Positions 4,421 through 51,849 of a stretch of DNA of 55,130 nucleotides are shown in pieces; positions within the stretch are counted from its first letter, which is position 1; every line of letters begins with the position of its first letter. The notes beneath the pieces are model-generated. The model worked only from the letters and a program-made list of their open reading frames with translations, was not told the origin of the DNA and ran no database searches. Position numbers and translations under genes: made by a program. Source of the stretch: Bacteroidales bacterium (GTDB lineage Bacteria > Bacteroidota > Bacteroidia > Bacteroidales > F082). The DNA lies in assembly GCA_017553625.1 (NCBI GenBank), contig JAFZKP010000015.1, positions 1 to 55,130 on the forward strand, given 5' to 3'.

Positions 4421-4439
4421 GTATCGTCTCTACGAGACG
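4421..4439. repeat. Partial palindromic element supplying the DUF2764 stop codon
   Basis: GTATCGTCTCTAC followed by GAGACGG forms a hairpin CGTCTC-TAC-GAGACG. It carries the CGTCTCTAC end found in the 28-bp palindromes elsewhere in the window. On the gene strand, the TAG stop of the DUF2764 gene (4430-4432) lies in the hairpin loop. It could be a remnant of a longer element. Confidence 0.5.
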
Positions 4440-5023
4440 GTTTTTACTCCCGCGAAGGTTCCGCGAACCTCCTTCACCAACTTCCTGAACATCTCCTCTC
4501 CTTTTTCCTTGTCGAGCTCAGCCCAACGTTGCACGGTCTTGGCTTTCGCCAGAAATGCGAGGATGGTGTTCATGTTGAAATTATCCAATCGTGCTATGTC
4601 GCTCGCCTTTTCCCACTTCAGCTCGTCAATCTTCTGCTCACGAAGCACGAAGTCGGCGTTGGCAAGGATTTCTTTAATCTGGCTCTCCTCATCGAAATCG
4701 GCTTCAGGCATAGGCACAAAGTAATCGTCGCCCTGCTTGCCGAGACGCTTTGCGAGATACGCCACCTTCATGTTGCGCAACCTGCCGTCGAAGTCGAAAT
4801 ACTCGCGAATGAAACGGTTCTTGCTTGCTGCAGCCTTGGCGTAGAAATCAGCACCCAGAGTCTCCTCATTGAAGCCTTCTTCAAAGAGCTCTACCAGCTG
4901 TTGGTCTTTCTCAGAAAGAAGCTCCATTATAGACTCCTTCGTGGCAGCATAGTCGAAATTCGTGTTCTCGAAACCTGCTGTCAGCTCCGGCAGACTCGCC
5001 ACTATATAGACATAGTTATCCAT
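4430..5023 (-). CDS. DUF2764 family protein of the V-ATPase operon
   Basis: A 197-residue soluble protein without signal peptide, rich in charged helices, opening MDNYVYIVASLPEL. It resembles the DUF2764 family, which in Bacteroidota sits between V-ATPase subunits E and A; the position here is the same. Its role is not established. By position and helical content it may act like subunit C (the socket linking rotor and membrane ring), which is otherwise missing from these operons; this is inference. Start and stop are tightly coupled: its ATG shares one base with the stop of subunit E (TGATG). Its last residues (VKTVS) and the TAG stop come from a CGTCTC/GAGACG hairpin resembling the window's palindromic elements. 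Confidence 0.85.
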   Translation of the reverse strand: MDNYVYIVASLPELTAGFENTNFDYAATKESIMELLSEKDQQLVELFEEGFNEETLGADFYAKAAASKNRFIREYFDFDGRLRNMKVAYLAKRLGKQGDDYFVPMPEADFDEESQIKEILANADFVLREQKIDELKWEKASDIARLDNFNMNTILAFLAKAKTVQRWAELDKEKGEEMFRKLVKEVRGTFAGVKTVS

Positions 5024-5634
5024 CAGCCGAAGAGGATTTTCTTTGTTGCCGGGCGCAAGTAATTGGCTATGAGTTGCATAAACTCATCGTCGGTGAACTG
5101 TATGACGTAGCCGCCGTCTTTCGGAGCCACCTTGAAGCCGCCGCCGAGTTTCTTGTTGAAGCTCACGTTGACCTCGCTCTTGAACATCTTGCCGATTTCA
5201 TTTTTCACAAAAGGCTCAACCTCGGCTTTCATCGCCTCAGGCAGAATGAGATCCAATGCCACTGGCGAGGCGTTGTCAGGGTTGAACGCCTTCACGATGT
5301 CTTTCACCAGTTCCTTGACGAAATCGGCGGAGCTTAGATTTGTTTTAACACCTTGTTCTGCGGCGCTCGTCACCACCATCTTCTCAATCTCCTGCTTAGT
5401 GACGGCGATGCTCTGTGTCGCTGCCATCTTCACATCTGCGTTGACTTTCGTCTTGAGTTCCTCAGCCTCTTTATTAGCCTGATTTACAATACGTTCAGCC
5501 TCGGCTTTTGCGTCGTCGAGAATCTTCTCGGCCTCTTTTTTGGCATTTTCCACGATTTCAACAGCGTCGTGATTAGCCTTTTCGACACCCTGTTCGTAGA
5601 TTTTCTTTGTTAAAATATCAAGTTTGTTATCCAT
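5023..5634 (-). CDS. atpE: V-type ATPase subunit E (peripheral stalk)
   Basis: A 203-residue subunit E. The first ~75 residues form a long Ala/Glu/Lys-rich coiled coil (NAKKEAEKILDDAKAEAERI region), the peripheral stalk helix that pairs with subunit G/H or the I subunit. The C-terminal ~90 residues form the globular domain contacting the top of A3B3. Length and layout match the family. It starts 11 bp after the gyrB stop, so the V-ATPase operon is probably read from the gyrB promoter unless an undetected promoter lies inside gyrB. Its TGA stop overlaps the next ATG by one base. Confidence 0.9.
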   Translation of the reverse strand: MDNKLDILTKKIYEQGVEKANHDAVEIVENAKKEAEKILDDAKAEAERIVNQANKEAEELKTKVNADVKMAATQSIAVTKQEIEKMVVTSAAEQGVKTNLSSADFVKELVKDIVKAFNPDNASPVALDLILPEAMKAEVEPFVKNEIGKMFKSEVNVSFNKKLGGGFKVAPKDGGYVIQFTDDEFMQLIANYLRPATKKILFG

Positions 5635-5645
5635 AACTGTAAGTT

Positions 5646-7601
<1,956 letters not shown>

Positions 7602-7646
7602 TTAACTATATTCTTTCAATTATTATTTCAATTTTCTAAAACCATG

Positions 7647-7676
7647 CAAAGGTAAGAAATTTCTTTGAAATAACAA
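7647..7676 (-). promoter_or_regulatory. Bacteroidota-type promoter of gyrB
   Basis: On the minus strand, TTG (7674-7676), a 19-base spacer and TACCTTTG (7647-7654) match the Bacteroidota consensus TTTG-N19-TAnnTTTG. The predicted transcript would start about 40 bases before the gyrB ATG. Confidence 0.75.
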
Positions 7677-7737
7677 TAAAAAAAATGACGTATTTTTAGC
7701 TTTTTTTGCCCAAAAAAACGTCGTTTTAAGAAAAATT

Positions 7738-12400: not shown

Positions 12401-12461
12401 ATGAAGCTGTTACAACAAATATAGACAGTATTAAAGCTAATATTTTTTTGTTACCCGACAT
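9426..12461 (-). CDS. Secreted tetratricopeptide-repeat protein, 1011 aa
   Basis: An N-terminal signal peptide (about 1-23, ending SLSAQ) is followed by TPR units over nearly the whole protein (AEFYFKQGLAYYQTNNIEKAA and many similar 34-residue helix pairs such as YNNNQYDEALTNLK and KSDYVSALPKLEQC), ending in a charged ERNETKNEEDAE tail. No enzymatic motif was found. It is probably a periplasmic or outer-membrane-associated scaffold. It is translationally coupled to the barrel protein downstream (ATGA overlap), suggesting a two-component outer-membrane assembly or transport module. A -7 box (TATTTTTG at 12487-12494) lies in front. What is assembled or moved cannot be told. Confidence 0.85.
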   Translation of the reverse strand: MSGNKKILALILSIFVVTASLSAQKRLDDYEPEAIFLEAKTLFDNENYASAAELFHKYLKLAEDKSAQKTVEAKFYEAACSSYIGAGEQQLMLFSKENPTSTFAPKADFLYANMLFKNKKYRDAIKKYESIDDECLTEQEKAEFYFKQGLAYYQTNNIEKAAPLFYKSAFIESPYKDDARYYYAHIQYVNKKYDDARFHFKKIERVPKYKDVVPLYMMQIDYVDGKYTSVTQDADRILASQSGQRKSDLALLIAESWYQQNDYKRALYYFDIARMSTRRSFPREVEFRIGFCKMKQNDFNDAIGNFQNVTKKNSTDELAQHASYYLAQCYMKTNQEKFARNAYLTAYKDNFDHELSEDALFNYAKLSFISGVDPFNEAVTQLEDYIDKNPNSPRKDEARLMIIHLYLNSKDSGKAIKALEMYPEMNSEMEQIYAQLTYNLGTESYAAGNYDNAISSFLKTINNRQATPKLKAEACYWLADSYMQKKDNANAEKYFAAFLKSEGSGQTDMPSFAYYNMGYISYSKGNFPAAVKNFSYFINMTKGDKEYEADAWMRVGDCYFMERNYQKAIIGYENAMKLDKRSGDYALFQQGMGHGALGDMNAKVNCMNELTKQYTTSSFYDRALYETGMAHLSTNDERSAISAFRRLVNERPRSTFARQGQMKIGMLYYNNNQYDEALTNLKIVVDEYQNTEESREALNIIRNIYMETNRTSEFFKYADENGIATSVTEQDSISFATAENFFQQGQYENALSAVEQYVRNFPKGAYLLKINYYGLTSLEKLGRASETRPYLETIISMPDNDYTDNALLKIANMEKSENELEKAKGYYQRLANITENQKLKMQALEGVMDCDFKLEDYDGAIENGNMLAGMQELSQNKRNFVNYVVGVSLFKKSDYVSALPKLEQCSLKDRTEMGAEAAYYVVLSNWKLGKLNDTEEKVFYISDNFGAFSYYVAMSFVTLSDVYVAKDNVFQAKETLKSIIDNYPGGEPKTLAEKKLADIERNETKNEEDAE

Positions 12462-12486
12462 AAAGAAAAAATTTTTTGCGAATTTA

Positions 12487-12494
12487 CAAAAATA
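12487..12494 (-). promoter_or_regulatory. -7 promoter box of the TPR/barrel operon
   Basis: TATTTTTG on the minus strand matches TAnnTTTG, 26 bases before the ATG. No clear -33 TTG was found at the expected spacing. Confidence 0.5.
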
Positions 12495-12523
12495 AAACGA
12501 GAGATGGTAACATTTATTATAAA

Positions 12524-12563: not shown

Positions 12564-12928
12564 TGAAAGGCATAAGCGGGATTCTGTTTATGATTGTCAT
12601 TTCTCTAATCCTGATGTCGCCGTCAGGCTTTAGCAACCTACCCTCCCGGCTCTGGCGAGCAACCTTCTGTAGAGACGTCATATTATGGCGTCTCCACACG
12701 CCGGTATATTTGGTTTTGCAGCCCATAAGGTTTACCTCCATCACATGTCACCATGCCATGGCGTGAGCTCTTGCCTCGCGTTTTCACCCTTACCCTTGCG
12801 GGCGGTAGTTTTCTGTGGCACTTGCTGTCGCCGTCTCCGGCGCCTTCCCGTTAGGAAGTATGGTGCTCTGAGCTGTCCCGACTTTCCTCACGCAGACTCA
12901 TCGTCTGCCCGCGACAATCGCCTTTCGG
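12563..12928 (-). ncRNA. rnpB: RNase P RNA (class A)
   Basis: The catalytic RNA of RNase P, which removes the 5' leader from tRNA precursors. On the minus strand the conserved P4 block GAGGAAAGTCGGGACAGC lies near the 5' end, and the 3' region carries GGGTAGGTTGCTAAAGCC and ACAGAATCCCGCTTAT, matching the universal J-P4/3' core. P1 can be formed between GAAAGGC (5', 12920-12926) and GCCTTTC (3', 12565-12571), which sets both ends. About 366 nt is normal for class A. In the P15-P17 region the RNA contains a hairpin, GTGGAGACG...CGTCTCTAC, matching the window's palindromic element family (12669-12697). Several chance ORFs overlap this RNA and should not be annotated. Confidence 0.95.
12669..12697. 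repeat. Palindromic element inside rnpB
   Basis: GTAGAGACG...GGCGTCTCCAC, 29 bp with near-complementary ends (one G/A mismatch in the outer arm). It has the same ends as the 28-bp family and lies in a peripheral helix of the RNase P RNA, where it folds as an RNA hairpin. Confidence 0.7.
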
Positions 12929-12932
12929 GCTG

Positions 12933-26677: not shown

Positions 26678-26705
26678 GTACTGACAAGGCAGGCCCTGTC
26701 CCTAC
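26678..26705. repeat. 28-bp palindromic element (degenerate), intergenic
   Basis: GTACTGACAAGGC...GCCCTGTCCCTAC followed by GGGA, in the gap between the TsaC and S41 genes. It is the same class as the in-gene copy at 36137-36164 but with several mismatches. Confidence 0.7.
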
Positions 26706-28288: not shown

Positions 28289-28321
28289 AGAATTTAACTC
28301 GCAACATTGAACAAAAATCAT

Positions 28322-28329
28322 TATTTTTG
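28322..28329 (+). promoter_or_regulatory. -7 promoter box of the vWA-slyD-queA operon
   Basis: TATTTTTG matches TAnnTTTG. It lies downstream of the TTG that would open the longest reading frame, so the ATG at 28352 is the likely start. It is divergent from the GT9 promoter, 33 bp away. Confidence 0.55.
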
Positions 28330-28351
28330 CAAAAATTTTTTCTTTTCAGAT

Positions 28352-30448
28352 ATGTGGTTGATTATAATCGCATTAGCGATAGGTTTGATATATGCTTCGC
28401 TGCTGTATTTGTTTTCGAAAAAATACGGCAAAGGGCTGACGGCGTTATTGTTCGCGTTGAGGACAATAGTTGTAGCCACCATCCTGATGCTATTCATCAA
28501 TCCGTATATCAAGCAGAGAATCAACAAGATAGAGCAGCCGATCATAGTATTCGCGCAAGATAACTCGGAATCAATAGTTTTGACAAAAGACTCGGTCTTT
28601 TACAAAGAAAAATATCCAAAACTGATTGATTCGATTGCAAATGAGCTGGAAAAGGAATACGATGTTGAAACCGTTCTTTTTGATGGAGGATTTCTCACTG
28701 CGTTCGAAATGACGCATACTGGGCAATACACTAATATTTACAACGCTTTGAGCACCATTCAGCGCCAGTATTACAAAAAGAACGTCGGAGCGGTTGTATT
28801 GTTATCTGACGGTATTGTAAATCAAGGTGTTAACCCAGAATTAAACATCGAGAAATACCCTTCCCCGATTTATTCAGTTACGCTTGGCGACACTGTTTCA
28901 TACCCAAGGACGAGCATCTCGGATGTGAAATACAACAAGACCGTCCAGGCGAACATGCTTTTCCCGCTTCGTGTGACAGCCAATGCATTGAATTACAAGG
29001 GAAAAGAGATGAATGTGATGGTAAAAATGGATGGTGTTGAGGTCGAAAACGCCAGTGTTGCCGTCACATCGAACCGGTTCTCGAAAACATTTGATTTCAA
29101 TATCGATTCCGGAGAAGAAGGCACGAAACAGATTGACATCGTTGTTGGTGATAAAACGCGCCGTGTCTTCATCAACGTGACCGACAAAAAACACCGCATC
29201 CTCTGTGTAGCCAAGGCTCCGCATCCCGACATCGCCGCGATAAAATCGGCATTGGACGACCATTTTGAATTTGAAACATGTTATTTTAACGAAAACAACA
29301 ATGAAAACGATGTAAAGACGCGTTTAATCGCGTCTCTACACGACCAAGATTTGGTGATTTTGCATCAATTATATGTACAGGCAAATGATGATTTGAGGGC
29401 AAATAATGATTTGAGGGCAAATAATGATTTGCCCCTACCGAAAATGATGATTATCGGTCCGGGCACAGATTTCGACGCGTTTAACCAATCGCAGAAAATG
29501 GTGACGATAAAACATGGTGCGACAAACACCAATCTTGACGTCCGCGGGCGTTTCAACAACGGCTTCGGACTGTTCACGATAAATTCTGACATAAAAAACG
29601 AGATACAATCGTATCCGCCGCTGTCGTTACCGCATTCGGAAATAACGTTCAACACCCAGCACAACGAGCTTTTGCGCATGGAAATCATGGACTTGGAAAC
29701 TCCCTACCCTCTCATGGCATTCGCCAACGACAATGACGGAAACAAAAACGCATTCATCTTCGGGACAGGCTGCTGGCGTTGGAAACTCTACGAATATTAT
29801 CATCACAAAAACCATGACGGCTTCAACGAGATTATCAATAAGACGATAAAATATCTTCTAACAGAAAAGGATAAAGAATTGACTGTCAACCACAAAGACA
29901 ATTATCTCAACACAGAAAACATCAATATCTCGGCAGAATTGAGGAATCCGAGCATGGAATTGGTGAATGAACCAGATTTGTATATCACAATCACGCAAAA
30001 AAACACGAGTAAAGATGCGATTAATCGCGTCTCTACGATAGCATCATCATACGATTATGTGTTTTCAAAAGGGGAAAACAATTACAATCTGAACATTGGC
30101 ATGCTTCCTGAAGGCATCTACAAATACCACGCAAACGCTTCGCTTGGCGGCATCGAATACAACGCCGACGGCACCTTCACGGTGGAGGCAACAGGCATCG
30201 AGGCACAAGACCTCACAGCCGACATCGAAAGGATGCGCTCTTTGGCATCGCAGACAGGTGGCAGACATTATTATATCACTGAAATACAGCAACTTACAAG
30301 AGACTTACAAAAAGACGAGAGAATAACATCCATTTCAAGGCAAGAAACACGCTATGACGATTTGATAAATCTCAAGTGGTTGTTTTTCAGCATTTTAGCA
30401 TTGATAACGACGGAATGGCTGTTAAGAAAAATATTTGGAATTTATTAA
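28352..30448 (+). CDS. Membrane-anchored von Willebrand factor A domain protein carrying palindromic insertions
   Basis: About 698 residues. Two N-terminal membrane helices (LIIIALAIGLIYASLLYL and LFALRTIVVATILMLFI), then a vWA domain with MIDAS motif DNSES and the VVLLSDGIVNQG strand, an Ig-like periplasmic region, and a C-terminal membrane helix (LKWLFFSILALITTEWLL). It resembles Bacteroidota vWA proteins often compared with glutamine amidotransferase-like membrane proteins; function unknown. Three repeat insertions are read through in frame: 29312-29339 (VKTRLIASL), 29375-29438 (three QANDDL/RANNDL units) and 30009-30036 (SKDAINRVST). The first and third copies of the same palindrome are read in different frames, so they encode unrelated peptides. 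Start chosen at ATG 28352; a TTG at 28307 lies before the promoter box. Confidence 0.85.
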   Translation: MWLIIIALAIGLIYASLLYLFSKKYGKGLTALLFALRTIVVATILMLFINPYIKQRINKIEQPIIVFAQDNSESIVLTKDSVFYKEKYPKLIDSIANELEKEYDVETVLFDGGFLTAFEMTHTGQYTNIYNALSTIQRQYYKKNVGAVVLLSDGIVNQGVNPELNIEKYPSPIYSVTLGDTVSYPRTSISDVKYNKTVQANMLFPLRVTANALNYKGKEMNVMVKMDGVEVENASVAVTSNRFSKTFDFNIDSGEEGTKQIDIVVGDKTRRVFINVTDKKHRILCVAKAPHPDIAAIKSALDDHFEFETCYFNENNNENDVKTRLIASLHDQDLVILHQLYVQANDDLRANNDLRANNDLPLPKMMIIGPGTDFDAFNQSQKMVTIKHGATNTNLDVRGRFNNGFGLFTINSDIKNEIQSYPPLSLPHSEITFNTQHNELLRMEIMDLETPYPLMAFANDNDGNKNAFIFGTGCWRWKLYEYYHHKNHDGFNEIINKTIKYLLTEKDKELTVNHKDNYLNTENINISAELRNPSMELVNEPDLYITITQKNTSKDAINRVSTIASSYDYVFSKGENNYNLNIGMLPEGIYKYHANASLGGIEYNADGTFTVEATGIEAQDLTADIERMRSLASQTGGRHYYITEIQQLTRDLQKDERITSISRQETRYDDLINLKWLFFSILALITTEWLLRKIFGIY
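29312..29339. repeat. 28-bp palindrome inside the vWA gene (copy 1)
   Basis: Arms GTAAAGACGCG and CGCGTCTCTAC (one mismatch) around TTTAAT. Read in frame as VKTRLIASL. Confidence 0.9.
29375..29438. repeat. Expanded palindromic element inside the vWA gene
   Basis: The outer ends are GTACAGGC and GCCCCTAC. Between them the unit GGCAAATAATGATTTG(AG) occurs three times in tandem, at 18-bp spacing. It encodes ANDDLR, ANNDLR, ANNDLP. It looks like a GTAGGGGCAAAT...ATTTGCCCCTAC element whose centre has been tandemly copied. Confidence 0.85.
30009..30036. repeat. 28-bp palindrome inside the vWA gene (copy 3)
   Basis: GTAAAGATGCGAT...ATCGCGTCTCTAC; nearly the same sequence as the copy at 29312 but read in another frame as SKDAINRVST. 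Confidence 0.9.
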
Positions 30449-31018: not shown

Positions 31019-32251
31019 ATGATTTCCAACGTTCAGAACATCAACATCGCAGAGTACGACTATCCGCTGCCTGATGAGAGGATTGCGAAATATCCGCTTG
31101 CGGAGCGAGACTCGTCAAAGCTCTTGGTGTTGAAAAACAATGAAATATGTGAAGACCATTTCCGTAACATCGGCGATTATCTTCCCGAGAAATCGGTTTT
31201 GGTCTTCAACGAGACGAAAGTGGTTCGTGCGCGTCTTCAGTTTGTGAAGGACTCGGGGGCCGCCATCGAGGTGTTCTGCCTTGAGCCCGTCACTGGCAAC
31301 GGCGACTATCAGCTGGCGTTTACCGCCAGTTCACCTGTCGAATGGCATTGTCTTGTCGGCAATTCACGCCGTTGGAAAGACGGCGCGTTGTCCATGCCGC
31401 TGAATATCAAAGGCAAAGACGTTGTTTTAAAAGCCGAGCGTATTGAGAAGACAGACGCGTACTCCCTTGTGCGTTTCTCATGGGAGCCTTGCGCCATCAG
31501 TTTCGCGGAGGTTCTTGAGGCTGCCGGAGAGATACCGTTGCCGCCGTATCTGCATCGCGAGGCGGAGCCGAGCGATAGGGAGCGTTATCAGACCGTCTTC
31601 GCCAAATATGAAGGATCTGTGGCTGCCCCGACAGCGTCGTTGCATCTCACCAAGCCATTGATAGCCAAGCTCAAAGAGATGGGACACACAATACAGGAAG
31701 TGACGCTCCACGTAGGTGCCGGCACGTTCCGTCCCGTCGCGTCCGACACCATCGGCAAACACGAGATGCACTCGGAATCAATAATAGTGAAACGGCAATG
31801 CATTGAGAATCTGAGAGATAACATTGGGCGGACGATAATTCCCGTTGGAACGACAAGCATGCGCACCATAGAATCGCTGTATTGGATTGGCGTGATGCTT
31901 CTCGAACAAGGCTTTGAAGAACGTAACCTGCATGTAAACCAATGGTTTCCTTACAACGACAGGACGTCGTTGCCTTCAGCGAAAGAAAGCCTGGAAGCCA
32001 TCATAAAATACCTCGACATGTATCATCTCGACGCTCTTCATGCCACCACCGCATTGATGATAGCTCCTTCATGCCCAATTAAAATAACGAAGGCGTTGAT
32101 TACGAATTTCCACCAGCCGAAAAGCACCTTGCTGTTGCTGGTGTCAGCGTTAATCGGCGAGCGTTGGAAAGAGGCGTACAAATATGCCCTTGAGCATGAT
32201 TTCCGGTTTTTGAGCTACGGAGATTCATGCTTGTTTTTACCAAATTTGTAA
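31019..32251 (+). CDS. queA: S-adenosylmethionine:tRNA ribosyltransferase-isomerase
   Basis: A 410-residue QueA, which transfers and isomerises the ribosyl moiety of SAM onto preQ1-modified tRNA to form epoxyqueuosine at wobble position 34. Family blocks are YDYPLPDERIAKYPLAERDSS at the N terminus, VLVFNETKVVRARL, GEIPLPPYLHR, YQTVFAKYEGSVAAPTASLH, LHVGAGTFRPV and the C-terminal TNFHQPKSTLLLLVSALIG. Length is somewhat long compared with the usual ~340-350 residues, as seen in other Bacteroidota QueA. It is the last gene of the plus-strand operon; the nested-hairpin repeat region begins just after its stop. Confidence 0.97.
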   Translation: MISNVQNINIAEYDYPLPDERIAKYPLAERDSSKLLVLKNNEICEDHFRNIGDYLPEKSVLVFNETKVVRARLQFVKDSGAAIEVFCLEPVTGNGDYQLAFTASSPVEWHCLVGNSRRWKDGALSMPLNIKGKDVVLKAERIEKTDAYSLVRFSWEPCAISFAEVLEAAGEIPLPPYLHREAEPSDRERYQTVFAKYEGSVAAPTASLHLTKPLIAKLKEMGHTIQEVTLHVGAGTFRPVASDTIGKHEMHSESIIVKRQCIENLRDNIGRTIIPVGTTSMRTIESLYWIGVMLLEQGFEERNLHVNQWFPYNDRTSLPSAKESLEAIIKYLDMYHLDALHATTALMIAPSCPIKITKALITNFHQPKSTLLLLVSALIGERWKEAYKYALEHDFRFLSYGDSCLFLPNL

Positions 32252-35690: not shown

Positions 35691-36986
35691 TTATTGAGGA
35701 AGCGGATTATATTTCCGACATAGGATAATTATTCTATTATCCCCCATTGCCGTCGTACCGAAAACATAGTTTTCATCACTTTCTTTAAGATTTAGGTTTT
35801 TCCTTAAATCATTGGCGCTCAACAGGAAATTGCGGGTAGCGACAGATGCTTCTGAAATATTTTTTAACAATTCTTTTTTGATTTTTTTGTTGAAAGGCGC
35901 AAATCCGACGACCTCGAAAACGCGTCCCGGAAAATCCGGAACAAGGTTGTCGGATGTATATAAATGGCTGTTAACGTGCAATTTATCGATTTCAAAACGC
36001 TGTGAAATCAATTTAAAGGCACCAGATTTCATCAAGGCGGCATTCGGTTCGTATAAATATTTTTTAACGGTTGATGAAAATGATGGGATGGCGGATTTTT
36101 CTTCTGATTCGACGAATTGAAAAACCATTTCAACCTGTTGGGACAAGGCATGCCTTGTCCCTACGGGATTCAAATTCACACAAAAATATTTTATTTCCCC
36201 TTCAAATCCTGGTTCAATTTTAATCAAAACCTCCTTGCATTCGTTTTTAACTGCCACGATGTGGATTTCCGAAATATTTTTCAATTCGTTGGTAATCAAG
36301 GAAATGTCTAACATCGGGGATGCCTTTATCAAATATTGTAAAGACGTGCCATGGCGCGTCTCTACGAGGTTTTCATACAGGTTTCGTTGTAATACAATAA
36401 CATCGGGCGAACAATCGTGCAGGGAAACCATTTTGCGGTTGTAAATGTCGCGCCTGGCGGGATCAATGTATAGGACAATGCATGCATTGTCCCTACGGGA
36501 TGGCAAATTGTCACATCCTGTGGTGGCAAGACATGTCTTGCCACAATAAAAATTATTTAAAAATGTTTCCGCATCGGAATTTACAACCGTGATTCTCCGT
36601 CCTAAAACATCAAAATTATGTTCTGCCAAATCGCATAATTCTTTCTGATTTTCAACGTAATAGGAGGTTTTGAATTTCTCAGAAAGGAAATATGAATCTA
36701 TGCCCAGACCGCCAGTCAGGTCGACAAAGGTATCACCACCTTCGATGATTGATGCCTTGTACTTCGCGGTAAGCTCCGAGGAACATTGCTCGATTGAGAG
36801 ATGTTTCGGAAATAGCAAATCGGGATTGGAAGCCCACGACGGCACTTTCTTCGACAGAAGCTGTCGCGCCTCTATCTGATTGAGCACCAACATTTTATCG
36901 ACATCGTTAGGGAATTTCTGCAACGCCAGCTGGCGCACGTCATCCTTCAGATGTTTCTCGATAAAATCTCGTGTGGCAGCGTTCAT
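35691..36986 (-). CDS. THUMP-like class I SAM methyltransferase carrying four palindromic insertions
   Basis: 431 residues. The Rossmann SAM-binding motif TFVDLTGGLGIDSYFLSEK is near 90-108, the catalytic-type VLYIDPARRD near 170-180, and the C-terminal THUMP-like domain ends in VFGTTAMGDNRIIILCRK. It belongs to the Bacteroidota methyltransferase family with PF18096-type tail; the RNA target is unknown. Between 36137 and 36544, four palindromes are read in frame: CGKTCLAT (36523-36544), RRDNACIVL (36468-36496, immediately before the conserved YIDPARR), VETRHGTSL (36338-36365) and VGTRHALSQ (36137-36164). The ATG at 36986 shares one base with the cstA stop (TGATG); an in-frame TTG just before is not used. 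It may be functional because the motifs survive. Confidence 0.85.
   Translation of the reverse strand: MNAATRDFIEKHLKDDVRQLALQKFPNDVDKMLVLNQIEARQLLSKKVPSWASNPDLLFPKHLSIEQCSSELTAKYKASIIEGGDTFVDLTGGLGIDSYFLSEKFKTSYYVENQKELCDLAEHNFDVLGRRITVVNSDAETFLNNFYCGKTCLATTGCDNLPSRRDNACIVLYIDPARRDIYNRKMVSLHDCSPDVIVLQRNLYENLVETRHGTSLQYLIKASPMLDISLITNELKNISEIHIVAVKNECKEVLIKIEPGFEGEIKYFCVNLNPVGTRHALSQQVEMVFQFVESEEKSAIPSFSSTVKKYLYEPNAALMKSGAFKLISQRFEIDKLHVNSHLYTSDNLVPDFPGRVFEVVGFAPFNKKIKKELLKNISEASVATRNFLLSANDLRKNLNLKESDENYVFGTTAMGDNRIIILCRKYNPLPQ
36137..36164. repeat. 28-bp palindrome in the methyltransferase gene (copy 4)
   Basis: GTTGGGACAAGGC...GCCTTGTCCCTAC with GCATGC centre; one mismatch. Reads VGTRHALSQ on the gene strand. 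Confidence 0.9.
36338..36365. repeat. 28-bp palindrome in the methyltransferase gene (copy 3)
   Basis: GTAAAGACGTGCC...GGCGCGTCTCTAC with CCATGG centre; two mismatches. Reads VETRHGTSL. Confidence 0.9.
36468..36496. repeat. Palindrome in the methyltransferase gene (copy 2)
   Basis: Perfect 20-bp core (GGACAATGCA and its complement, 36473-36492) followed by CTAC; one end has an extra base. Reads RRDNACIVLY directly upstream of the conserved IDPARR. Confidence 0.85.
36523..36544. repeat. 22-bp palindrome in the methyltransferase gene (copy 1)
   Basis: Perfect palindrome GTGGCAAGACA/TGTCTTGCCAC; reads CGKTCLAT. Its ends differ from the GTAG type. Confidence 0.85.
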
Positions 36987-38437
36987 CAAAGCGCGTTTTT
37001 AGCGTATTTTCTATGCCAATTAAAGAACAAAACCGTAAACAGAATCGTGATGCAGCCTGCGATTATCGGGGCGACGACACCCGAGAATCCCACGCCTTCG
37101 ATGTATTTTCCGGCAGGGAACTCAAAGATATACGTCATCGTGACCATCGTCATGAACATCGCTGGGATGAGACTGAAGATGTAGTTTTTCTTTTCCTTGG
37201 CGAGATAAACCGTTATCGCCCAAAGAGTTACCATTGCAAGCACCTGGTTCGCCCATGCGAAATAACGCCAAATCATGTCGAAACCTTTCGCGTCGGCGAG
37301 ACTGTAAACCAAGATGACCGCTGTCACGGCGAACATCGGGATGGCGACGATCAAACGGTTTTTGATAGGCTTCTGGTCGAAGTGCAGGAAGTCGGCGATG
37401 ATGAGGCGTGCCGAACGCAAGGCTGTGTCGCCCGAGGTGACGGCTGCCGAGATGACGCCGAGGATGGTAATCACAGCAATCACTGGGGTAAACCAAGTGT
37501 TGGCGATCACACCAACGATGGCGGCTCCGCTCATTCCGCTGACGTTGACCACGCTATCGGGACCGAAGAAATATGCCGCCGCAGCTGCCCAAATCAAGGC
37601 AACGACGCCTTCGGTAATCATGGCACCGTAGAAAATCGGACGGCCTTGCTTCTCGTTGACCATGCAACGTGCCATCAAAGGCGACTGTGTGGCATGGAAA
37701 CCGCTGATTGCGCCGCACGCGATGCTGATGAACATCATCGGGAAGATTGGACTGTGAGCCGCGTTAGGATGACGGTTCTGCAATCCGCTCCAAATCTCCG
37801 GAATCTCTGGCTGATACATGATAAACGCCACGAAGATAGCAACAGCCATACCGAGCAAAAGTATTCCAAAAATCGGGTAAATTTTTCCGATTAATTTGTC
37901 GATTGGCAGCAAAGTGGCAATCAGATAATAAGCTAAGATGATGATAACCCAAACGTATGGATTCCAACCTGGTGTGAAGTTGTTGATTAACAGCGTTGCC
38001 GGGGTGTTGACGAACACCACGCCGACCAAAATCATCAATATTACTGTGAATCCGCGCATAAACTGTTTCACTCCGTTGCCGAGGTACATTCCGTGAATCT
38101 CAGGCAGACTCGCGCCTTTGGTACGCAGCGAAATCATGCCGGCGAGGTAGTCGTGGACGGCACCAGCGAAGATGCTGCCAAGCACAATCCACAGGAACGA
38201 CGCCGTCCCGAACTGCGCTCCCATGATAGCGCCGATGATTGGACCGACGCCGGCGATATTCAGAAACTGAATCAAGAAGATGCGCCAAGGCTTCATCGGC
38301 ACGTAGTCGACGCCGTCAGCCATAGTGACAGCTGGCGTTTCACAATCAGGGTCAGCGCCGAAGAGCTTCTCTATAATTTTTCCGTAAATCAAATAGCCAA
38401 CAATCAAGACGGCAATAGCTATAAAAAATGTTGTCAT
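36986..38437 (-). CDS. cstA: CstA-family carbon starvation/peptide-pyruvate transporter
   Basis: A 483-residue inner-membrane protein with many helices (FFIAIAVLIVGYLIYG at the start; WRIFLIQFLNIAGVGPIIGAIMGAQFG; LWAITVYLAKEK near the end). The motif GVDYVPMKPWRIFLIQFLNIAG and AVHDYLAGMISLR are characteristic of the CstA family. E. coli CstA (about 700 residues) imports peptides or pyruvate during carbon starvation; this shorter ~480-residue form is the common one in anaerobes and lacks the C-terminal extension. It starts 8 bp after the prfB stop and is coupled to the methyltransferase gene by TGATG. Confidence 0.93.
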   Translation of the reverse strand: MTTFFIAIAVLIVGYLIYGKIIEKLFGADPDCETPAVTMADGVDYVPMKPWRIFLIQFLNIAGVGPIIGAIMGAQFGTASFLWIVLGSIFAGAVHDYLAGMISLRTKGASLPEIHGMYLGNGVKQFMRGFTVILMILVGVVFVNTPATLLINNFTPGWNPYVWVIIILAYYLIATLLPIDKLIGKIYPIFGILLLGMAVAIFVAFIMYQPEIPEIWSGLQNRHPNAAHSPIFPMMFISIACGAISGFHATQSPLMARCMVNEKQGRPIFYGAMITEGVVALIWAAAAAYFFGPDSVVNVSGMSGAAIVGVIANTWFTPVIAVITILGVISAAVTSGDTALRSARLIIADFLHFDQKPIKNRLIVAIPMFAVTAVILVYSLADAKGFDMIWRYFAWANQVLAMVTLWAITVYLAKEKKNYIFSLIPAMFMTMVTMTYIFEFPAGKYIEGVGFSGVVAPIIAGCITILFTVLFFNWHRKYAKNAL

Positions 38438-43003: not shown

Positions 43004-43550
43004 ATTTTATACTAACGTTATCATAAAAAAACTCCTTCAGCCCTTCCCTTGCGTCAGCAATTTTATCATACCAATCCTTCACGGAATTCTGCCCCACCAC
43101 ATCGGTAACGTATTTCACTGAAACGAATGGGATTCCCATCTTTCGACAGACCTCGGCCTCAGCAAAGGCTTCCATATCGATGACATCGCCTTCGATATCA
43201 GCGCCTTGCGTGATAAAGGAATCGCCGGTGTTGCAGGTGCCCCAAATTGAATTTGAAAAATTTTCAAATTTTTCAAATTCAATTTCAGAATTCACACCAT
43301 CAATTTTCACCTTACGTAAATCTCTGTCAATGAATCGATTACAAACAATAATATCGCCTACCTTATGATTAATTGTTCCAGCAGTGCCGAAACTGATAAC
43401 CATGTCGGGATGATATTCGCAGATGGCGCGCATCGTATTCATGGCGGCATTCACCTTGCCCATGCCGGTTTCAACGTAAATCACTTCCGCATTGGGAATA
43501 TTGATTTCTATCTTTTCTTCAGGAATAGCGTAAACCAATAAAATCTTCAT
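43002..43550 (-). CDS. MTA/SAH-type nucleosidase-like protein with a palindromic insertion
   Basis: About 182 residues, nucleoside-phosphorylase fold. MKILLVYAIPEE opens like MTA/SAH nucleosidase; VISFGTAGTINHKVGDIIV is the GTAG substrate loop, CNTGDSF and VIDMEAFAEA the active-site segment with Met-Glu, and KYVTD ends with the catalytic-type Asp. It is shorter than MtnN (~230), so it could be a degraded or specialised form (MTA/SAH or futalosine hydrolase-like). A 42-bp palindrome at 43244-43285 reads IEFEKFENFSNSI in the middle. The start is set at ATG 43550, which aligns with the family N terminus; the longest frame starts 24 bp further up. It follows the M20 gene by 33 bp. Confidence 0.75.
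   Translation of the reverse strand: MKILLVYAIPEEKIEINIPNAEVIYVETGMGKVNAAMNTMRAICEYHPDMVISFGTAGTINHKVGDIIVCNRFIDRDLRKVKIDGVNSEIEFEKFENFSNSIWGTCNTGDSFITQGADIEGDVIDMEAFAEAEVCRKMGIPFVSVKYVTDVVGQNSVKDWYDKIADAREGLKEFFYDNVSIK
43244..43285. repeat. 42-bp near-perfect AT-rich palindrome in the nucleosidase gene
   Basis: Two perfect 20-bp arms, AAATTGAATTTGAAAAATTT and its complement, separated only by TC. It is in frame, encoding the E/F/K/N-rich peptide EFEKFENFSNSI. Confidence 0.9.
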
Positions 43551-43583
43551 AACTAAAAGCAATTTCATATTCATTTATTTTCA

Positions 43584-44756
43584 TTAAAAATCCCGTTGGG
43601 ATAACGCATGCGTTATCCATAACATCGTTTCCATTCCGATTTTCATCGCATTTTCATCAATATCAAAATTGGATGTATGTTGTTTAGAATAAATACCTTT
43701 TTCAGGATTTGAAGTACCCAGACGATAGAAACATGCAGGCACTTTATGCGAATACCAGGCAAAGTCCTCGGCAGTCATCAGCTGAGGTAAATTTTTAACC
43801 TTATTTTCACCCAGAATCTCTTTCGCGAAAGCGGCACATTTTCCTGTCAGTTTCTCATCATTTTTCAATGAAGGATAGCCTTGTTCGATGAAGACATCAG
43901 CCTTGCAACCATATTCTGACGCAACCTCTTTAGCAACCTTTAAAATATTATCTTTCAATAATTTACGCTTCTCTTCATCGAATGTGCGCATGGTGCCTTT
44001 CAGATTCACTTCGGAAGGAATCACGTTATAGGTTCCTTCCGCCATGAAACCGCCAAACGCCAATAAAACGTCGCCATTTTCAGGATACAATTCCGACAAT
44101 TTTGTCACAATTTTCGCTGCAGCGAGAACCGCATTGTCGCGCTCGGCGGGTTTTGCTGCATGACCTCCCCTGCCCTTCACGGTAATATTAACCTCATCCG
44201 ACGATGCCATGTAGGCTCCGGCATGAAAACCGACTTCACCGCAAGGCAAATCAGGGTAAACGTGCTGCCCGATAATCAAATCCACGCCATCAAGAACGCC
44301 TTCTTTAATCATCAACGAAGAGCCTCCAGGAAGTTTTTCCTCGCCAGGCTGGAAAATAAGCTTTATCGTGCCAGAAAAATTGTCTTTCAGATCATTGAGA
44401 ATGAAAGCAGTGCCAAGAAGCATCGCAGTATGGGCATCATGTCCGCAGGCATGCATCACTCCTTCGTTGACAGAACGATAAGGAAGGTCTGTGGTTTCTT
44501 GGATTGGCAACGCGTCCATGTCAGCGCGCAATGCAATTACTTTTTTGCCTGTGCACGTTCCTTTTATTGTCGCAACCACTCCATATCCGGCAACATTCGA
44601 TTGATATTCAATATTTTTTGAAGCAAGACATTTCTTTATGAGTTCTGCGGTTTCTTTTTCACAAAAGCTCAATTCGGGGTGCTGATGAAGCTGCCGGCGG
44701 ATTGCCACAACATCATCAAAATACGCGTCACTCTTGGCTTTTATCAATTGCTTCAT
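43584..44756 (-). CDS. M20 family metallopeptidase/amidohydrolase
   Basis: About 390 residues, cytoplasmic. It matches the M20D amidohydrolase group (IAA-amino-acid hydrolase, N-acetyl-diaminopimelate deacetylase): RQLHQHPELSFCEKET at the N terminus, the metal ligands in MHACGHDAHTAMLLG, the FQPGEE motif with catalytic Glu-Glu, then GQHVYPDLPCGEVG and the dimerisation domain. The substrate (N-acyl amino acid or peptide) is not predictable. The last residues (MLWITHALSQRDF) and the stop come from a 20-bp palindrome, GGATAACGCA and its complement (43599-43618). ATG 44756 is chosen; the longer frame starts at TTG 44777, inside the -7 box. It is divergent from the carboxyltransferase gene. Confidence 0.88.
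   Translation of the reverse strand: MKQLIKAKSDAYFDDVVAIRRQLHQHPELSFCEKETAELIKKCLASKNIEYQSNVAGYGVVATIKGTCTGKKVIALRADMDALPIQETTDLPYRSVNEGVMHACGHDAHTAMLLGTAFILNDLKDNFSGTIKLIFQPGEEKLPGGSSLMIKEGVLDGVDLIIGQHVYPDLPCGEVGFHAGAYMASSDEVNITVKGRGGHAAKPAERDNAVLAAAKIVTKLSELYPENGDVLLAFGGFMAEGTYNVIPSEVNLKGTMRTFDEEKRKLLKDNILKVAKEVASEYGCKADVFIEQGYPSLKNDEKLTGKCAAFAKEILGENKVKNLPQLMTAEDFAWYSHKVPACFYRLGTSNPEKGIYSKQHTSNFDIDENAMKIGMETMLWITHALSQRDF
43599..43618. repeat. 20-bp palindrome forming the C-terminus of the M20 gene
   Basis: GGATAACGCA and its complement, with near-complementary flanks GTTG/ATAAC. On the minus strand it encodes WITHALS; the stop lies 10 bp further on. Confidence 0.85.
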
Positions 44757-44770
44757 TTTTAATTTTATTT

Positions 44771-44803
44771 TTTGCAAAAATAAGAAAAATATTAGTACCT
44801 TTG
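44771..44803 (+). promoter_or_regulatory. Promoter of the carboxyltransferase gene
   Basis: TTTG (44771-44774), 21-base spacer, TACCTTTG (44796-44803). It overlaps the minus-strand -7 box of the M20 operon, so the two divergent promoters may compete. Confidence 0.75.
44775..44782 (-). promoter_or_regulatory. -7 promoter box of the M20-nucleosidase operon
   Basis: TATTTTTG on the minus strand, 18 bases before ATG 44756; it excludes the TTG at 44777 as start. Confidence 0.5.
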
Positions 44804-44847
44804 CGCTCCAAATGTAAGAGTCGAAAAAAAATTAAATAAACATAGAA

Positions 44848-46614: not shown

Positions 46615-46621
46615 TTTTACT

Positions 46622-46658
46622 GTAGGGGCAAAAAATTTTTCGCCCCTACATTTTTTTT
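46622..46658 (+). terminator. Terminator formed by a 28-bp palindromic element
   Basis: GTAGGGGCAAAAA...TTTTTCGCCCCTAC (46622-46649) followed by a run of eight T. The palindromic element serves as an intrinsic terminator 7 bp after the carboxyltransferase stop. Confidence 0.8.
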
Positions 46659-46659
46659 A

Positions 46660-46667
46660 TATATTTG
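46660..46667 (+). promoter_or_regulatory. -7 promoter box of the Omp28-like gene
   Basis: TATATTTG immediately after the palindromic terminator, 27 bases before the ATG. Confidence 0.55.
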
Positions 46668-46694
46668 CATGTTAAACATTTAAAATAATAGCAC

Positions 46695-49016: not shown

Positions 49017-49020
49017 TTGT

Positions 49021-49065
49021 TCAGTTAGTCAGTTAGTCAGTTGATCAGTTAATCAGTTGACTAAC
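49021..49065. repeat. Octamer repeat array, left arm (about 5 units)
   Basis: TCAGTTAG, TCAGTTAG, TCAGTTGA, TCAGTTAA, TCAGTTGA in tandem after the stop of the T9SS gene. Reverse-complementary in unit to the right array at 49114-49193. Confidence 0.9.
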
Positions 49066-49073
49066 AAAACATT

Positions 49074-49108
49074 AAAAAAGTCTCTTGAAATCTCAAGAGA
49101 CTTTTTTT
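49074..49108. terminator. Bidirectional terminator between convergent genes
   Basis: AAAAAAGTCTCTTGA, loop AATC, TCAAGAGACTTTTTT: a near-perfect stem with A- and T-tracts, centred between the two octamer arrays. Confidence 0.9.
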
Positions 49109-49113
49109 ATATA

Positions 49114-49193
49114 TAACTGACTAATTGACTAACTGATTAACTGACTAACTGATTAACTGACCAACTGATTAACTGATTAACTGATTAACTGAA
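49114..49193. repeat. Octamer repeat array, right arm (10 units)
   Basis: Ten tandem octamers, consensus TAACTGAY. The last units overlap the 3' end of the cysteate synthase-like gene, whose stop TAA (49177-49179) and codons VQLIS are array sequence. Confidence 0.9.
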
Positions 49194-50466
49194 CGAAGTT
49201 CTTGATTTCTTCTTTGCTGGCGTTTACGCTAAAAACGTGATTTGGTTTCAGATACCACACATCATTGTGCTGTTTGAACAGCTTCTCGCCACCGCCAGTG
49301 ATGTTGAGCATGATAATGTCGTCAGCCTTAACCTGTTTGTTTTCAACAGCCTGGATGAGCGAAGCCGTCGCCACGCCTGCCGCATGGTAGATGTCGATGC
49401 CTTCGTGTTCCTCGAACAAATCGCAAGCCCTCTGTGCCTCGTCGTTGGTGACAGCAAAGAATTCGCCGTCGGTATCAACCATTGCGTCATACAATCCTCC
49501 TGCCAGCGAATACGGTGGTTTGCGGTTTGACAATACCTTTGCACAGATTTCGCTCGCGTCTTTACGCGCCTGCTCCGCATCATACGGCAGCAACGCCCTT
49601 GAATGCGCCTTCCACGCGTCATACATAGGAGTGAACGGCCTGTTCTGCGACACAAAAATCCTTGCTTTGTTCGCGCCGAAGCGTCCGTCCTCAATGAAAC
49701 GCAGGTTCGCCTCCCATGCCGCGATGGCTCCCGTGCCGCTTCCCACAGCCTGGAAATAATAATCCGGGATACGCCCGATAAACGTGGTCGCCGACATCAT
49801 CGTGGTGCTCATGCCATCACGACGCGCGATGTTCTTGGCGCCGCCCTCAGCGAAGAAGCCGTCCATCTCACAGACGATATTCCCTAAATTAATCGCATCG
49901 AAATAATCGCTGCCACTCTCGGTGCAAAGCAGTTTCACACAAGGATTCAATGGTTTCTCAAACCACAACGCGTCGATGTTATCCTCCGGAACCGTCAGCA
50001 AAAGCTTGATATTGTTGTCGGAACACACCTGAGCGAACGCACGCGCCGTGTTACCCGCCGACGACACCACCATCACCTGCTCGCGAAGCTTGTCGTCAAG
50101 ACGCGCGCATACAGTATAAGCCTCCGTCTCCTTGAAGGAGCAGGTGCGCATACGAGCGCCAATCATCGGGAAATAACCGTTGAACGTGATGTATAAGTTG
50201 TTGAGTCCTAACTTTTTAGCAAGTTTCTCACTTTTATATGTCACAGGACAAGACGCGCCTTTCAAAACGTTTTTAATCGGCATCCAGTCGGCAAAACGGT
50301 ACAATCCCTCGTTTTCCTCTTTCACCTCAAGCTGTTTTTTCTCATAAATTGCACGGATAAGGCTCGGTTTCTCGCTGTTCGGAAAGTCAAGAATCCAGCC
50401 AGTGTCATCACCAACGCGGCCGTCAGCAACGCATTTCACCTGGTATTTCGTCGGAATAAAAGTCAT
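49177..50466 (-). CDS. Cysteate synthase-like PLP enzyme (threonine synthase superfamily)
   Basis: About 429 residues, fold type II PLP enzyme. It resembles archaeal cysteate synthase (phosphoserine plus sulfite to L-cysteate) more than ordinary threonine synthase: RTCSFKETEAY with the PLP lysine, SSAGNTARAFAQV, DYFDAINLGNIV, ARRDGMSTTMMSA, YYFQAVGSGTGAIAAWEA, PPYSLAGGLYDAMVDTDG and LNITGGGEKLFK. The identification is from remembered family sequence, so the substrate is inference; threonine synthase is the main alternative. In Bacteroidota, L-cysteate made this way can feed sulfonolipids (capnine type). The start is ATG 50466: the longer frame's TTG lies in the -7 promoter box (TAATTTTG). The C-terminus runs into an octamer repeat array. 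Confidence 0.8.
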   Translation of the reverse strand: MTFIPTKYQVKCVADGRVGDDTGWILDFPNSEKPSLIRAIYEKKQLEVKEENEGLYRFADWMPIKNVLKGASCPVTYKSEKLAKKLGLNNLYITFNGYFPMIGARMRTCSFKETEAYTVCARLDDKLREQVMVVSSAGNTARAFAQVCSDNNIKLLLTVPEDNIDALWFEKPLNPCVKLLCTESGSDYFDAINLGNIVCEMDGFFAEGGAKNIARRDGMSTTMMSATTFIGRIPDYYFQAVGSGTGAIAAWEANLRFIEDGRFGANKARIFVSQNRPFTPMYDAWKAHSRALLPYDAEQARKDASEICAKVLSNRKPPYSLAGGLYDAMVDTDGEFFAVTNDEAQRACDLFEEHEGIDIYHAAGVATASLIQAVENKQVKADDIIMLNITGGGEKLFKQHNDVWYLKPNHVFSVNASKEEIKNFVQLIS

Positions 50467-50487
50467 AGTTTTTCTGTTTTGAAGCTG

Positions 50488-50495
50488 CAAAATTA
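50488..50495 (-). promoter_or_regulatory. -7 promoter box of the cysteate synthase-like gene
   Basis: TAATTTTG on the minus strand, 22 bases before ATG 50466. Confidence 0.55.
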
Positions 50496-50587
50496 GTAAA
50501 ATAATTTACTATTTTTTAAAAAATGAATAAAAAAATGAAGCGCGTTTAAATTTTTCAAAAATATGTCAGGCATTCGTTTTATTTTTA

Positions 50588-50595
50588 TATCTTTG
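50588..50595 (+). promoter_or_regulatory. -7 promoter box of the C1 peptidase operon
   Basis: TATCTTTG, 31 bases before the first C1 peptidase ATG; -33 not clear. Confidence 0.55.
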
Positions 50596-50625
50596 TAGTT
50601 TGAAAAAATCTATAAAATTTAAAAC

Positions 50626-51804
50626 ATGAAAAACTTAAAAAGTATAATTTTATTAGCGTTTGCGATGGTTATAGCCGTCCCTATGCTGGCTCAGAAAGAG
50701 GAAAAAGCCGTCTATCAGTTTACCGACGAGACGATAGCCCCTCACACTATCGTACAGAACCAAGCCCAGTCAGGTACCTGCTGGTGCTTCGCCGGAACAG
50801 GATTTGTTGAGGCGGAGATTCTCAAGAAATACAACAAGACCTTGAACCTTTCGGAAATGTTCTTCGTACGTTGGGCATACCAGCAGAAATTCAAGAGATT
50901 TGTGAGCATGCACGGCACCGTCGGTCTCAGCTGCGGCGGCGAGGTCATCGACGTGCTTTACGCCTTGAATGACGCAGGTATGATTACCGAAGAATCCTAC
51001 AGCGGACTGCTGCCAGGCGAAGAGAAACACTGCCACTGGGAACTGCAGAACGCCATCGAGAGCTACGCCAAAGTGGTGACAAAGAAAAGCAACGGGCGCA
51101 TCCTTTACGAGATTTATCCGCAAGTCGTCGAGTCAATTCTTGACGGATACCTCGGAAAACTGCCTCAAAGATTCGATGCCAAAGGCTTTGCCAAGAAATA
51201 CAAACTCAACATCGAGGATTATATCCAGTTCTCGTCATTCACCGACAAGAAACTCTACAAGCCTTTCATCCTTGAGATTCCAGACAACTGGACCAACACC
51301 ATGACTTACAACATGCAGTTTGACGAGATGATGGCGGAAGTCGACAACGCCCTCAAAAACGGCTACACAGTGGGTTGGGCACAGGACGTGAGCGACAAGG
51401 GCTTTTCTCGCAAGGCAGGCGTGGCAATCGTCCCCACCGACGATGTCAATGTCATCCGCGACAGCGACCCGAAAAAATTCAAGAAAATGACTGACGAAGA
51501 GATTCTTGAAGGCATATATTCATTTGAAAATGTGATTCCTGAAAAAGAAGTTACTGCTGAGATGCACCAGACAGCTTACAACGACTGGAGCACCGGCGAC
51601 GACCACAGCATGCTCATCGTCGGCATCGCACACGACCAGAACGGCACCAAATATTATAAGGTGAAAAACTCATGGGGCGAGACAGGGCCATACAACGGAT
51701 TCTGGTACTGTTCAGAACAGTTTGTGAAGCTCCACACCGTATTCTTCACAGTGAACAAAGCCGCTTTGACCGAAGGAATGAAAAACAAACTTTCAATTAA
51801 GTAA
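50626..51804 (+). CDS. Exported C1 peptidase (bleomycin hydrolase/aminopeptidase C-like), first copy
   Basis: 392 residues, signal peptide 1-22 (AVPMLAQ), then a papain-fold peptidase of the C1B group. The active site is Gln48, Cys52 in QSGTCWCF, His327 in GDDHSMLIVG and Asn348 in VKNSWG. C1B enzymes (PepC, bleomycin hydrolase) are usually cytoplasmic hexameric aminopeptidases; a signal peptide suggests a periplasmic or outer-membrane-associated role here. The C-terminus ends KNKLSIK; the second copy ends RKKLGIK, so the family's C-terminal tail is kept. It is followed by a paralog 82 bp downstream; that gap holds a 28-bp palindrome. Confidence 0.93.
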   Translation: MKNLKSIILLAFAMVIAVPMLAQKEEKAVYQFTDETIAPHTIVQNQAQSGTCWCFAGTGFVEAEILKKYNKTLNLSEMFFVRWAYQQKFKRFVSMHGTVGLSCGGEVIDVLYALNDAGMITEESYSGLLPGEEKHCHWELQNAIESYAKVVTKKSNGRILYEIYPQVVESILDGYLGKLPQRFDAKGFAKKYKLNIEDYIQFSSFTDKKLYKPFILEIPDNWTNTMTYNMQFDEMMAEVDNALKNGYTVGWAQDVSDKGFSRKAGVAIVPTDDVNVIRDSDPKKFKKMTDEEILEGIYSFENVIPEKEVTAEMHQTAYNDWSTGDDHSMLIVGIAHDQNGTKYYKVKNSWGETGPYNGFWYCSEQFVKLHTVFFTVNKAALTEGMKNKLSIK

Positions 51805-51821
51805 TTGCATTAAAACAACAG

Positions 51822-51849
51822 GTAAAGACGCGATTCATCGCGTTTCAAC
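51822..51849. repeat. 28-bp palindromic element between the two C1 peptidase genes
   Basis: GTAAAGACGCGAT...ATCGCGTTTCAAC, near-perfect; matches the copies in the vWA gene. It could form an RNA hairpin between the two cistrons. Confidence 0.85.

Follow-up and report, generated by a model that had tools for sequence, protein, structure and literature searches.

The 55,130-nucleotide stretch of DNA analysed here (the window: positions 1 to 55,130 of contig JAFZKP010000015.1, from Bacteroidales bacterium assembly GCA_017553625.1) carries a family of palindromes of about 28 base pairs, bounded when intact by GTAG at one end and CTAC at the other, that recur in the source genome both between genes and, in frame, within them. 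These palindromes are most probably double-foot repetitive extragenic palindromic (REP) elements, non-autonomous and moved by TnpAREP (also termed REP-associated tyrosine transposase, or RAYT), and most like those of TnpAREP subclass 2.4. Double-foot REPs of that subclass (RAYT group 4) have a 5' GT[AG]G foot and a 3' C[TC]AC foot, are known from Cyanobacteria, Bacteroidetes and various phyla, and are located beside, and in frame inside, their tnpAREP genes (PMC6006769). TnpAREP is described as cutting single-stranded REP DNA at CT and, in one system, also at CA dinucleotides, while GTAG contributes to recognition or to the choice of cut site (PMC8266576). The elements described below resemble the REPs of subclass 2.4 in their ends, in their host phyla, and in the presence of copies beside and inside tnpAREP.

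The palindrome family is real, and is larger than first described. An exact-end search of the source genome (2.47 Mb in 52 contigs, 86.7% complete) returned 72 palindromes and none for a reversed control pattern, and a scan that scored both ends and the centre returned, at a score of at least 15, 122 palindromes in 778,546 bases versus four in shuffled DNA. The scanned DNA consisted of the window and 40 source-genome stretches picked around copies, so that densities are biased; the control was that DNA after a single first-order Markov shuffle, judging by which about four of the 122 copies may be due to chance, and the score itself rewards symmetry. Exact-end copies were also present in all 23 congeners in a set of relatives (ranging from 1 to 71) and in seven of 16 genomes from the same order. 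Within the window, the scan located 12 copies (Table 1). The original prediction had named eight of these (at 12669, 26678, 29312, 30009, 36137, 36338, 46622 and 51822), to which the same threshold adds four (29411, 36469, 36520 and 43595). While all eight are present and palindromic or nearly so, the ends that they were said to share (GTAGRGRC/GYCYCTAC) are exact on both sides only at 46622, the remaining copies displaying changes such as GTAA, GTTG, GTAC, CCAC and CAAC; the supposedly common length of 28 bp does not extend to the 29-bp copy at 12669; and a partial copy reported at 4421 has only the CGTCTCTAC half in common and fails the scan.

A mobilizing enzyme, for example a RAYT-like Y1 transposase, had been proposed as one explanation for the palindromes, with a recommendation that the genome be searched for it, and this proposal proved right in kind. 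As had been noted, no Y1 enzyme is found in the window, nor elsewhere on its contig; matches are instead located on contigs C13, C21 and C34. A search with the NF047646 profile identified two TnpAREP-like genes, at C34:18288-18737 and C21:10361-10768, each 43% identical to a congener TnpAREP (E values of 2e-40 and 1e-33, respectively), the first with the motifs NHVH, WQ and YIENNV and the second with HHVH, QWE and YINDNV, to be compared with NH[IFV]H, WQ and YIxNNP in TnpAREP of subclass 2.4. REP dimers flank the C34 gene on both sides, and another is found immediately upstream of the C21 gene; the reading frames of the two genes themselves contain no palindrome. The Y1_Tnp profile (PF01797) alone detects only the C13 gene in the source genome and no Y1 gene in genomes G005, G015 and G017. 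A reading in which elements occur without an enzyme was dropped for the source genome, G005 and G015 because NF047646 found TnpAREP-like genes in each; in G017, the NF047646 search also gave no TnpAREP-like gene.

The association between elements and enzymes extends to the level of the genus, where a search with the congener TnpAREP matched 37 of 60 genomes; the statistics that follow rest on 30 loci, corresponding to the best match of 30 of those 37 genomes. A palindrome is found within 400 bp at 23 of the 30 loci, and inside the stop-to-stop TnpAREP open reading frame (ORF) at 17 of 30; among 600 control windows, each 1,350 bp long and taken from source-genome DNA only, 108 contain one. The genes are often flanked by elements in this genus, with palindromes on both sides at L471-L473, and harbor in-frame elements between their HuH and Y motifs, where TnpAREP of L451, L453 and L454 reads RDVPWRVST or KDVPWRVST. 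The type of element is also linked to the type of enzyme: among 23 proteins compared, 17 were testable in that their centre occurs more than once, and in all 17 the nearest-neighbour enzyme carries the same centre. These enzyme-linked centres are CCATGG (L470-L473), GTGCAC (L474 and L475), GCGATTCATCGC (L477 and L478), GCAAAATTTTGC (L480, L485 and L490), GCATTGAATGC (L481 and L484) and GGATGNNAATCC (L486 and L487, the latter being the source genome); additional centres are also present at some loci, such as L475 and L479.

The centres themselves are self-complementary beyond chance (in 50 source-genome copies chosen by their ends alone, complementary bases make up 249 of the 300 centre pairs), and the body of the palindromes is accordingly hairpin-forming. 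Across 23 distinct 12-base centres, a small sample in which the highest value for non-partner columns reaches 1.00 bits, mean mutual information is 0.96 bits for partner columns versus 0.39 bits for other columns. The expectation that paired positions covary holds between subfamilies, which differ as whole hairpins, but not within them, where changes are mostly one-sided: measured against 12 subfamily consensuses, to which 110 of the 122 copies could be assigned (12 being left out), 166 pair positions depart on one side and 30 on both, part of those 30 stemming from the lumping of related subfamilies. In the CCATGG subfamily, for which a pattern search (CCATGG and one end fixed) across all DNA fetched by then gave 36 distinct copies, 31 retain a T.G mismatch at the second centre pair and one is fully symmetric.

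These distributions bear on the second explanation offered in the original prediction, which was partly supported as a whole but not in this respect: that hairpin-templated (quasipalindrome) correction maintains symmetry in old repeats whose movement has ceased. Palindromic centres that covary between subfamilies, and the 30 pair positions with two-sided changes, are what such correction might leave behind. The prevalence of one-sided changes, in spite of a scan that favours symmetric copies, and the retention of a mismatch that continuous repair would be expected to erase in 31 of 36 copies both speak against it, as does the fact that presence and absence differ between orthologs, and correction of this type is very unlikely to account for the family.

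How TnpAREP would cut and join the DNA, what the foot contributes and how elements pass from one phylum to another can be inferred, partly from published work on these enzymes. The element, at approximately 28 bp with GTAG and CTAC at its intact ends, would fold into a single hairpin in single-stranded DNA, and a TnpAREP of the HUH/Y1 type would cut that DNA beside the GTAG foot and then transfer the element. Each enzyme lineage would prefer its own centre, such that centres would come to differ between subfamilies as entire hairpins, while the requirement for a hairpin would keep each of them palindromic. New copies would settle between genes, or within genes if the net length is divisible by three and the frame avoids TAG, in which case a tolerant loop would gain a peptide of about 8 to 10 residues.

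Several features of the insertion sites can be set beside this scheme. Orthologous genes exist both with and without copies. No clear target-site duplication of 2 to 9 bp was found at 49 source-genome, 125 named-genome and 118 viral copies (the latter two sets being among the matches listed, here and below), as is expected for HUH enzymes, and a T or C directly adjoins the foot on its outer side at 81%, 76% and 75% of the ends in the three sets; both observations are consistent with HUH chemistry, without proving it. That the two ends are inverted copies of one another, and that insertions are dispersed, might also be read as the signature of miniature inverted-repeat transposable elements, with a DDE transposase recognizing GTAG...CTAC as short terminal inverted repeats, and a few 4-bp flanking repeats in named genomes (four observed versus 0.8 expected) point in the same direction. 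An origin of this kind is exceedingly unlikely, given that no excess of duplications at other lengths stands out in all three sets, and that the observed linkage is to HUH enzymes (no search for DDE transposases having been made).

The possibility that each insertion adds a constant net length of 24 bp (28 minus a pre-existing tetranucleotide) was also considered. Differences of 24 bp recur between L345_3979 and several congeners, between the window copy at 36338 and both L336 and L342, and between L331 and L296, and an 8-residue gap in the methyltransferase structure 3ll7, described below, was counted toward the same idea; furthermore, none of 12 29-bp copies is found in an ORF, versus 47 of 103 28-bp copies (Fisher p = 0.0014). 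Against it, a 29-bp copy is found inside the TnpAREP ORF of L497, and length differences between orthologs amount to 24 bp in 13 cases versus 9 bp in 19, others being frequent too, in counts where many comparisons share one site and the other genome often has its own element there.

Insertion within genes is common. Among the 122 source-genome copies, 50 are located in frame within ORFs, spread over 32 ORFs that represent longest-ORF tilings of at least 100 residues and not gene calls; nine of the 50 fall within 45 codons of the ORF start, a region in which translation may in fact begin further downstream. By construction, no in-ORF copy uses the frame that reads TAG; of the 47 in-ORF copies that are 28 bp long, 30 read GTA GAG... 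and 17 use the other open frame. A Pfam scan of 20 of the 32 ORFs gave a family match in 18, and in at least seven the copy is inside the matched domain (AnmK, RibD_C, NQRA_2nd, PIF1, GINT1_N and two Por_Secre_tail), such that NqrA, AnmK and RibD are among the conserved proteins with in-frame copies.

One of these host genes encodes a putative methyltransferase in the window, for which the solved homolog 3ll7 displays an 8-residue gap opposite LVETRHGT (the copy at 36338) and an 11-residue gap opposite YCGKTCLATTG (the copy at 36520). In an alignment with 13 congeners, one loop of this protein is occupied by an element in 10 of the 14 species; eight of the 10 begin at the identical codon, and five centre types are represented (CCATGG, GCGATTCATCGC, GCACGGCCGTGC, GTTTCCTGAAAC and a diverged GTAGGGATGTGG...); in the remaining four species the element-free loop reads QNILLKN[AS]K. 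Three loops of a 713-residue protein, also encoded in the window and conserved across 15 aligned congeners, vary likewise. An open ORF is retained in 28 of 28 orthologs. In the third loop of the methyltransferase, L336, L343 and L344 carry peptides of the VISTEAQRSGEI / VISTAVKRSGEI type, which suggest that another repeat family, unrelated to this one, has likewise inserted in frame.

The frequency of such copies also bears on whether the palindromes are kept chiefly as RNA hairpins, acting as 3' mRNA stabilizers or terminators and spread by ordinary duplication and recombination. Copies outside ORFs for which both neighbours are known (68 in number) are distributed in a manner that would suit that function, 49 being located between codirectional, 16 between convergent and three between divergent ORFs, as raw counts with no genome baseline. 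Nevertheless, the 50 copies inside ORFs argue against it, and it leaves unexplained both the linkage to TnpAREP and the identical 28-mers in distant phyla described below, so that this explanation appears very unlikely.

The occurrence of five centres in one methyltransferase loop, with eight of 10 elements at one codon, and of different centres at a single viral site raises the further possibility, which is doubtful at present, of cassette swapping, in which a resident double-foot REP would serve as a landing pad, TnpAREP would exchange its centre for that of another subfamily, and loops would thereby be rewritten repeatedly; independent reinsertion into a tolerant loop may serve as an alternative. 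The viral site is found in two related contigs, L217 (position 390) and L323 (position 4211). At a separate site in a Planctomycetaceae locus (L145, position 6982), the element takes the place of part of a TTTCAGGGCGTTG-type repeat, which also occurs without an element elsewhere in that locus.

The elements extend well beyond the order. An exact-end scan of named genomes returned at least 117 stretches, whose record titles (among the matches listed) comprise Bacteroidetes, Cyanobacteria, Chloroflexi, Spirochaetales, Desulfuromonas, Geobacter, Zixibacteria and Cloacimonadota, as well as Planctomycetaceae, Patescibacteria (Uhrbacteria and Moranbacteria), Methylococcales and Acidobacteria; many of these records are metagenome-assembled genomes, and single cases may represent misbinned contigs. 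A scan of viral contigs returned at least 120 stretches. Perfect centres were present in 78 of 126 named-genome matches and 55 of 157 viral matches. The identical 28-mer GCGATTAATCGC is found in Calothrix, Methylococcales, Moranbacteria, Bacteroidia and viral contigs, and a mismatch-bearing 28-mer, GCGCCATGGCAC, is common to Planktothrix and Bacteroidales. A tblastn search with eight queries found a TnpAREP match in nine of 237 listed loci, all nine among the 117 genomic loci (six from Bacteroidetes or Balneolia and one each from Planktothrix, Chloroflexi and Uhrbacteria) and none, among the matches listed, in the 120 viral pieces, a weak negative since those contigs are partial. An element is inside the TnpAREP match in five of the nine loci, and inside it or within about 110 bp in all nine; while the loci were picked for holding an element, such that co-occurrence is not independent, this closeness is still informative.

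A number of observations weigh against mobilization of these palindromes by TnpAREP as double-foot elements. The enzymes encoded on C34 and C21 score 48 and 40 bits against NF047646, under its curated cut-off of 80, and their genes adjoin single-foot dimers rather than double-foot copies. A scan of the source-genome stretches requiring one intact foot gave 85 hairpins, of which 44 have CTAC at the other end and 41 do not, so that the genome contains a mix of double-foot and single-foot or decayed copies; the GCGATTCATCGC and GGATGNNAATCC centre types appear single-footed, and most window copies have degraded ends, despite the 72 exact copies in the genome. In the genus, seven of the 30 TnpAREP loci have no palindrome nearby, neither a rank correlation across the 60 genomes (Spearman 0.20, p = 0.13) nor a Mann-Whitney test (p = 0.37) relates TnpAREP matches to CCATGG copy number, and CCATGG copies persist in 15 of the 23 genomes without a match. 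No cognate enzyme was found in the 86.7% complete assembly for CCATGG, the commonest source-genome subfamily with 19 copies; either enzymes turn over faster than elements, or a single enzyme acts on more than one centre, or the gene belongs to the 13% absent from the assembly. Finally, comparison of orthologs revealed no clean empty site between highly identical sequences, and net length differences vary; a search for near-identical viral contigs by way of a capsid protein gave relatives, among which no such site was found either.

Both double-foot REPs associated with TnpAREP and REPs located within genes are already known (PMC3733652, PMC6006769), and what is unusual here is how varied the centres are and that sister species reuse the same protein loops. 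Unlike the REPs of subclass 2.4 as described in PMC6006769, the present elements comprise many centre subfamilies within one genome, for several of which no cognate enzyme was detected, and unrelated host genes commonly contain copies. They share with the GTAG-tagged REPs of PMC3733652 a GTAG foot, a short hairpin, head-to-head dimers, some intragenic copies, and subfamilies set by complementary stem changes; in those REPs, however, GTAG is unpaired and at one end only, whereas 44 of the 85 hairpins noted above pair GTAG with CTAC and the other 41 are single-footed or decayed. As with Rickettsia palindromic elements (PMC10969869, PMC3733652), palindromes are found in frame in protein-coding genes, but those elements are about 150 bp long or carry a CGTC tag; at 28 to 29 bp and with GTAG feet, the present family was not assigned to them. 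Literature searches, which covered titles and the openings of abstracts and few subscription journals, turned up no account of double-foot REPs inserted in frame on a large scale in Bacteroidales, nor of different centres reusing a loop, and a search with the end sequences returned, among the matches listed, only work unrelated by title.

The C13 gene (L016, 747-1199) encodes a 150-residue Y1 protein, an IS200/IS605-type TnpA that belongs to the HUH/Y1 family. Its YIKRQKEHH motif, which resembles that of HuH subclass 1.2 in PMC6006769, and the absence of any palindrome in 2.7 kb around the gene set it apart from the enzymes discussed above, and derivation of the palindromes from a non-autonomous IS200/IS605 element was rejected on the latter ground. 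Matches to Y1_Tnp were also noted within ORFs of about 1,120 to 1,260 residues in relatives (G007:C121, G007:C104, G018:C31 and G039:C8), where a Y1-like domain would thus form part of very large proteins.

Table 1. Copies of the palindrome family in the window and the ORFs that contain several of them.
Feature	Position	Strand	Evidence
29-bp copy, centre GTCATATTATGGC, between genes	12669..12697	.	sequence scan
28-bp copy, degraded centre AAGGCAGGCCCT, between genes	26678..26705	.	sequence scan
713-aa ORF, three scored copies inside	28307..30448	+	
28-bp copy, in frame in 713-aa ORF, peptide VKTRLIASL added	29312..29339	+	
28-bp copy, in frame in 713-aa ORF (RANNDLRANNDLPLP)	29411..29438	+	
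28-bp copy, centre GCGATTAATCGC, in frame in 713-aa ORF (SKDAINRVST)	30009..30036	+	
Putative methyltransferase ORF (PG_1098-like, THUMP-like), four copies inside	35691..36989	-	
28-bp copy, centre AAGGCATGCCTT, in frame in methyltransferase ORF (PVGTRHALSQ)	36137..36164	-	
28-bp copy, centre CCATGG, in frame in methyltransferase ORF (VETRHGTSLQ)	36338..36365	-	
28-bp copy, centre AATGCATGCATT, in frame in methyltransferase ORF	36469..36496	-	
28-bp copy, centre AAGACATGTCTT, in frame in methyltransferase ORF	36520..36547	-	
28-bp diverged copy (AACGCATGCGTT), C-terminus of peptidase M20 ORF	43595..43622	-	
28-bp copy, exact ends, GTAGGGGC type, intergenic, 7 bp past an ORF	46622..46649	.	
28-bp copy, centre GCGATTCATCGC, between genes	51822..51849	.	

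The 713-residue ORF gave no family in a Pfam search at an E value of 0.001; of its copies, the one at 29411 comes last in a tandem array of GGGCAAATAATGATTT-like units, and the one at 30009 is missing at the equivalent site of congeners that read INNxY. Elsewhere in the window, a QueA-like ORF of 410 residues (31019-32251) matches model positions 2-321 of 322 over its residues 11-405, with approximately 70 extra residues relative to the model, and two congeners match it over nearly equal length. A perfect 20-nucleotide inverted repeat (AAATTGAATTTGAAAAATTT; 43244-43285), with its arms 2 nucleotides apart, is unrelated to the palindrome family.

An anonymous repeat family is tied by these analyses to a known but little-studied class of enzyme, in a genus where short mobile DNA appears to add peptides repeatedly to conserved proteins. 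Comparison alone could test the tolerance of protein loops to such additions, the coevolution of enzymes with their hairpins, and the spread between phyla of elements only 28 bp in length.

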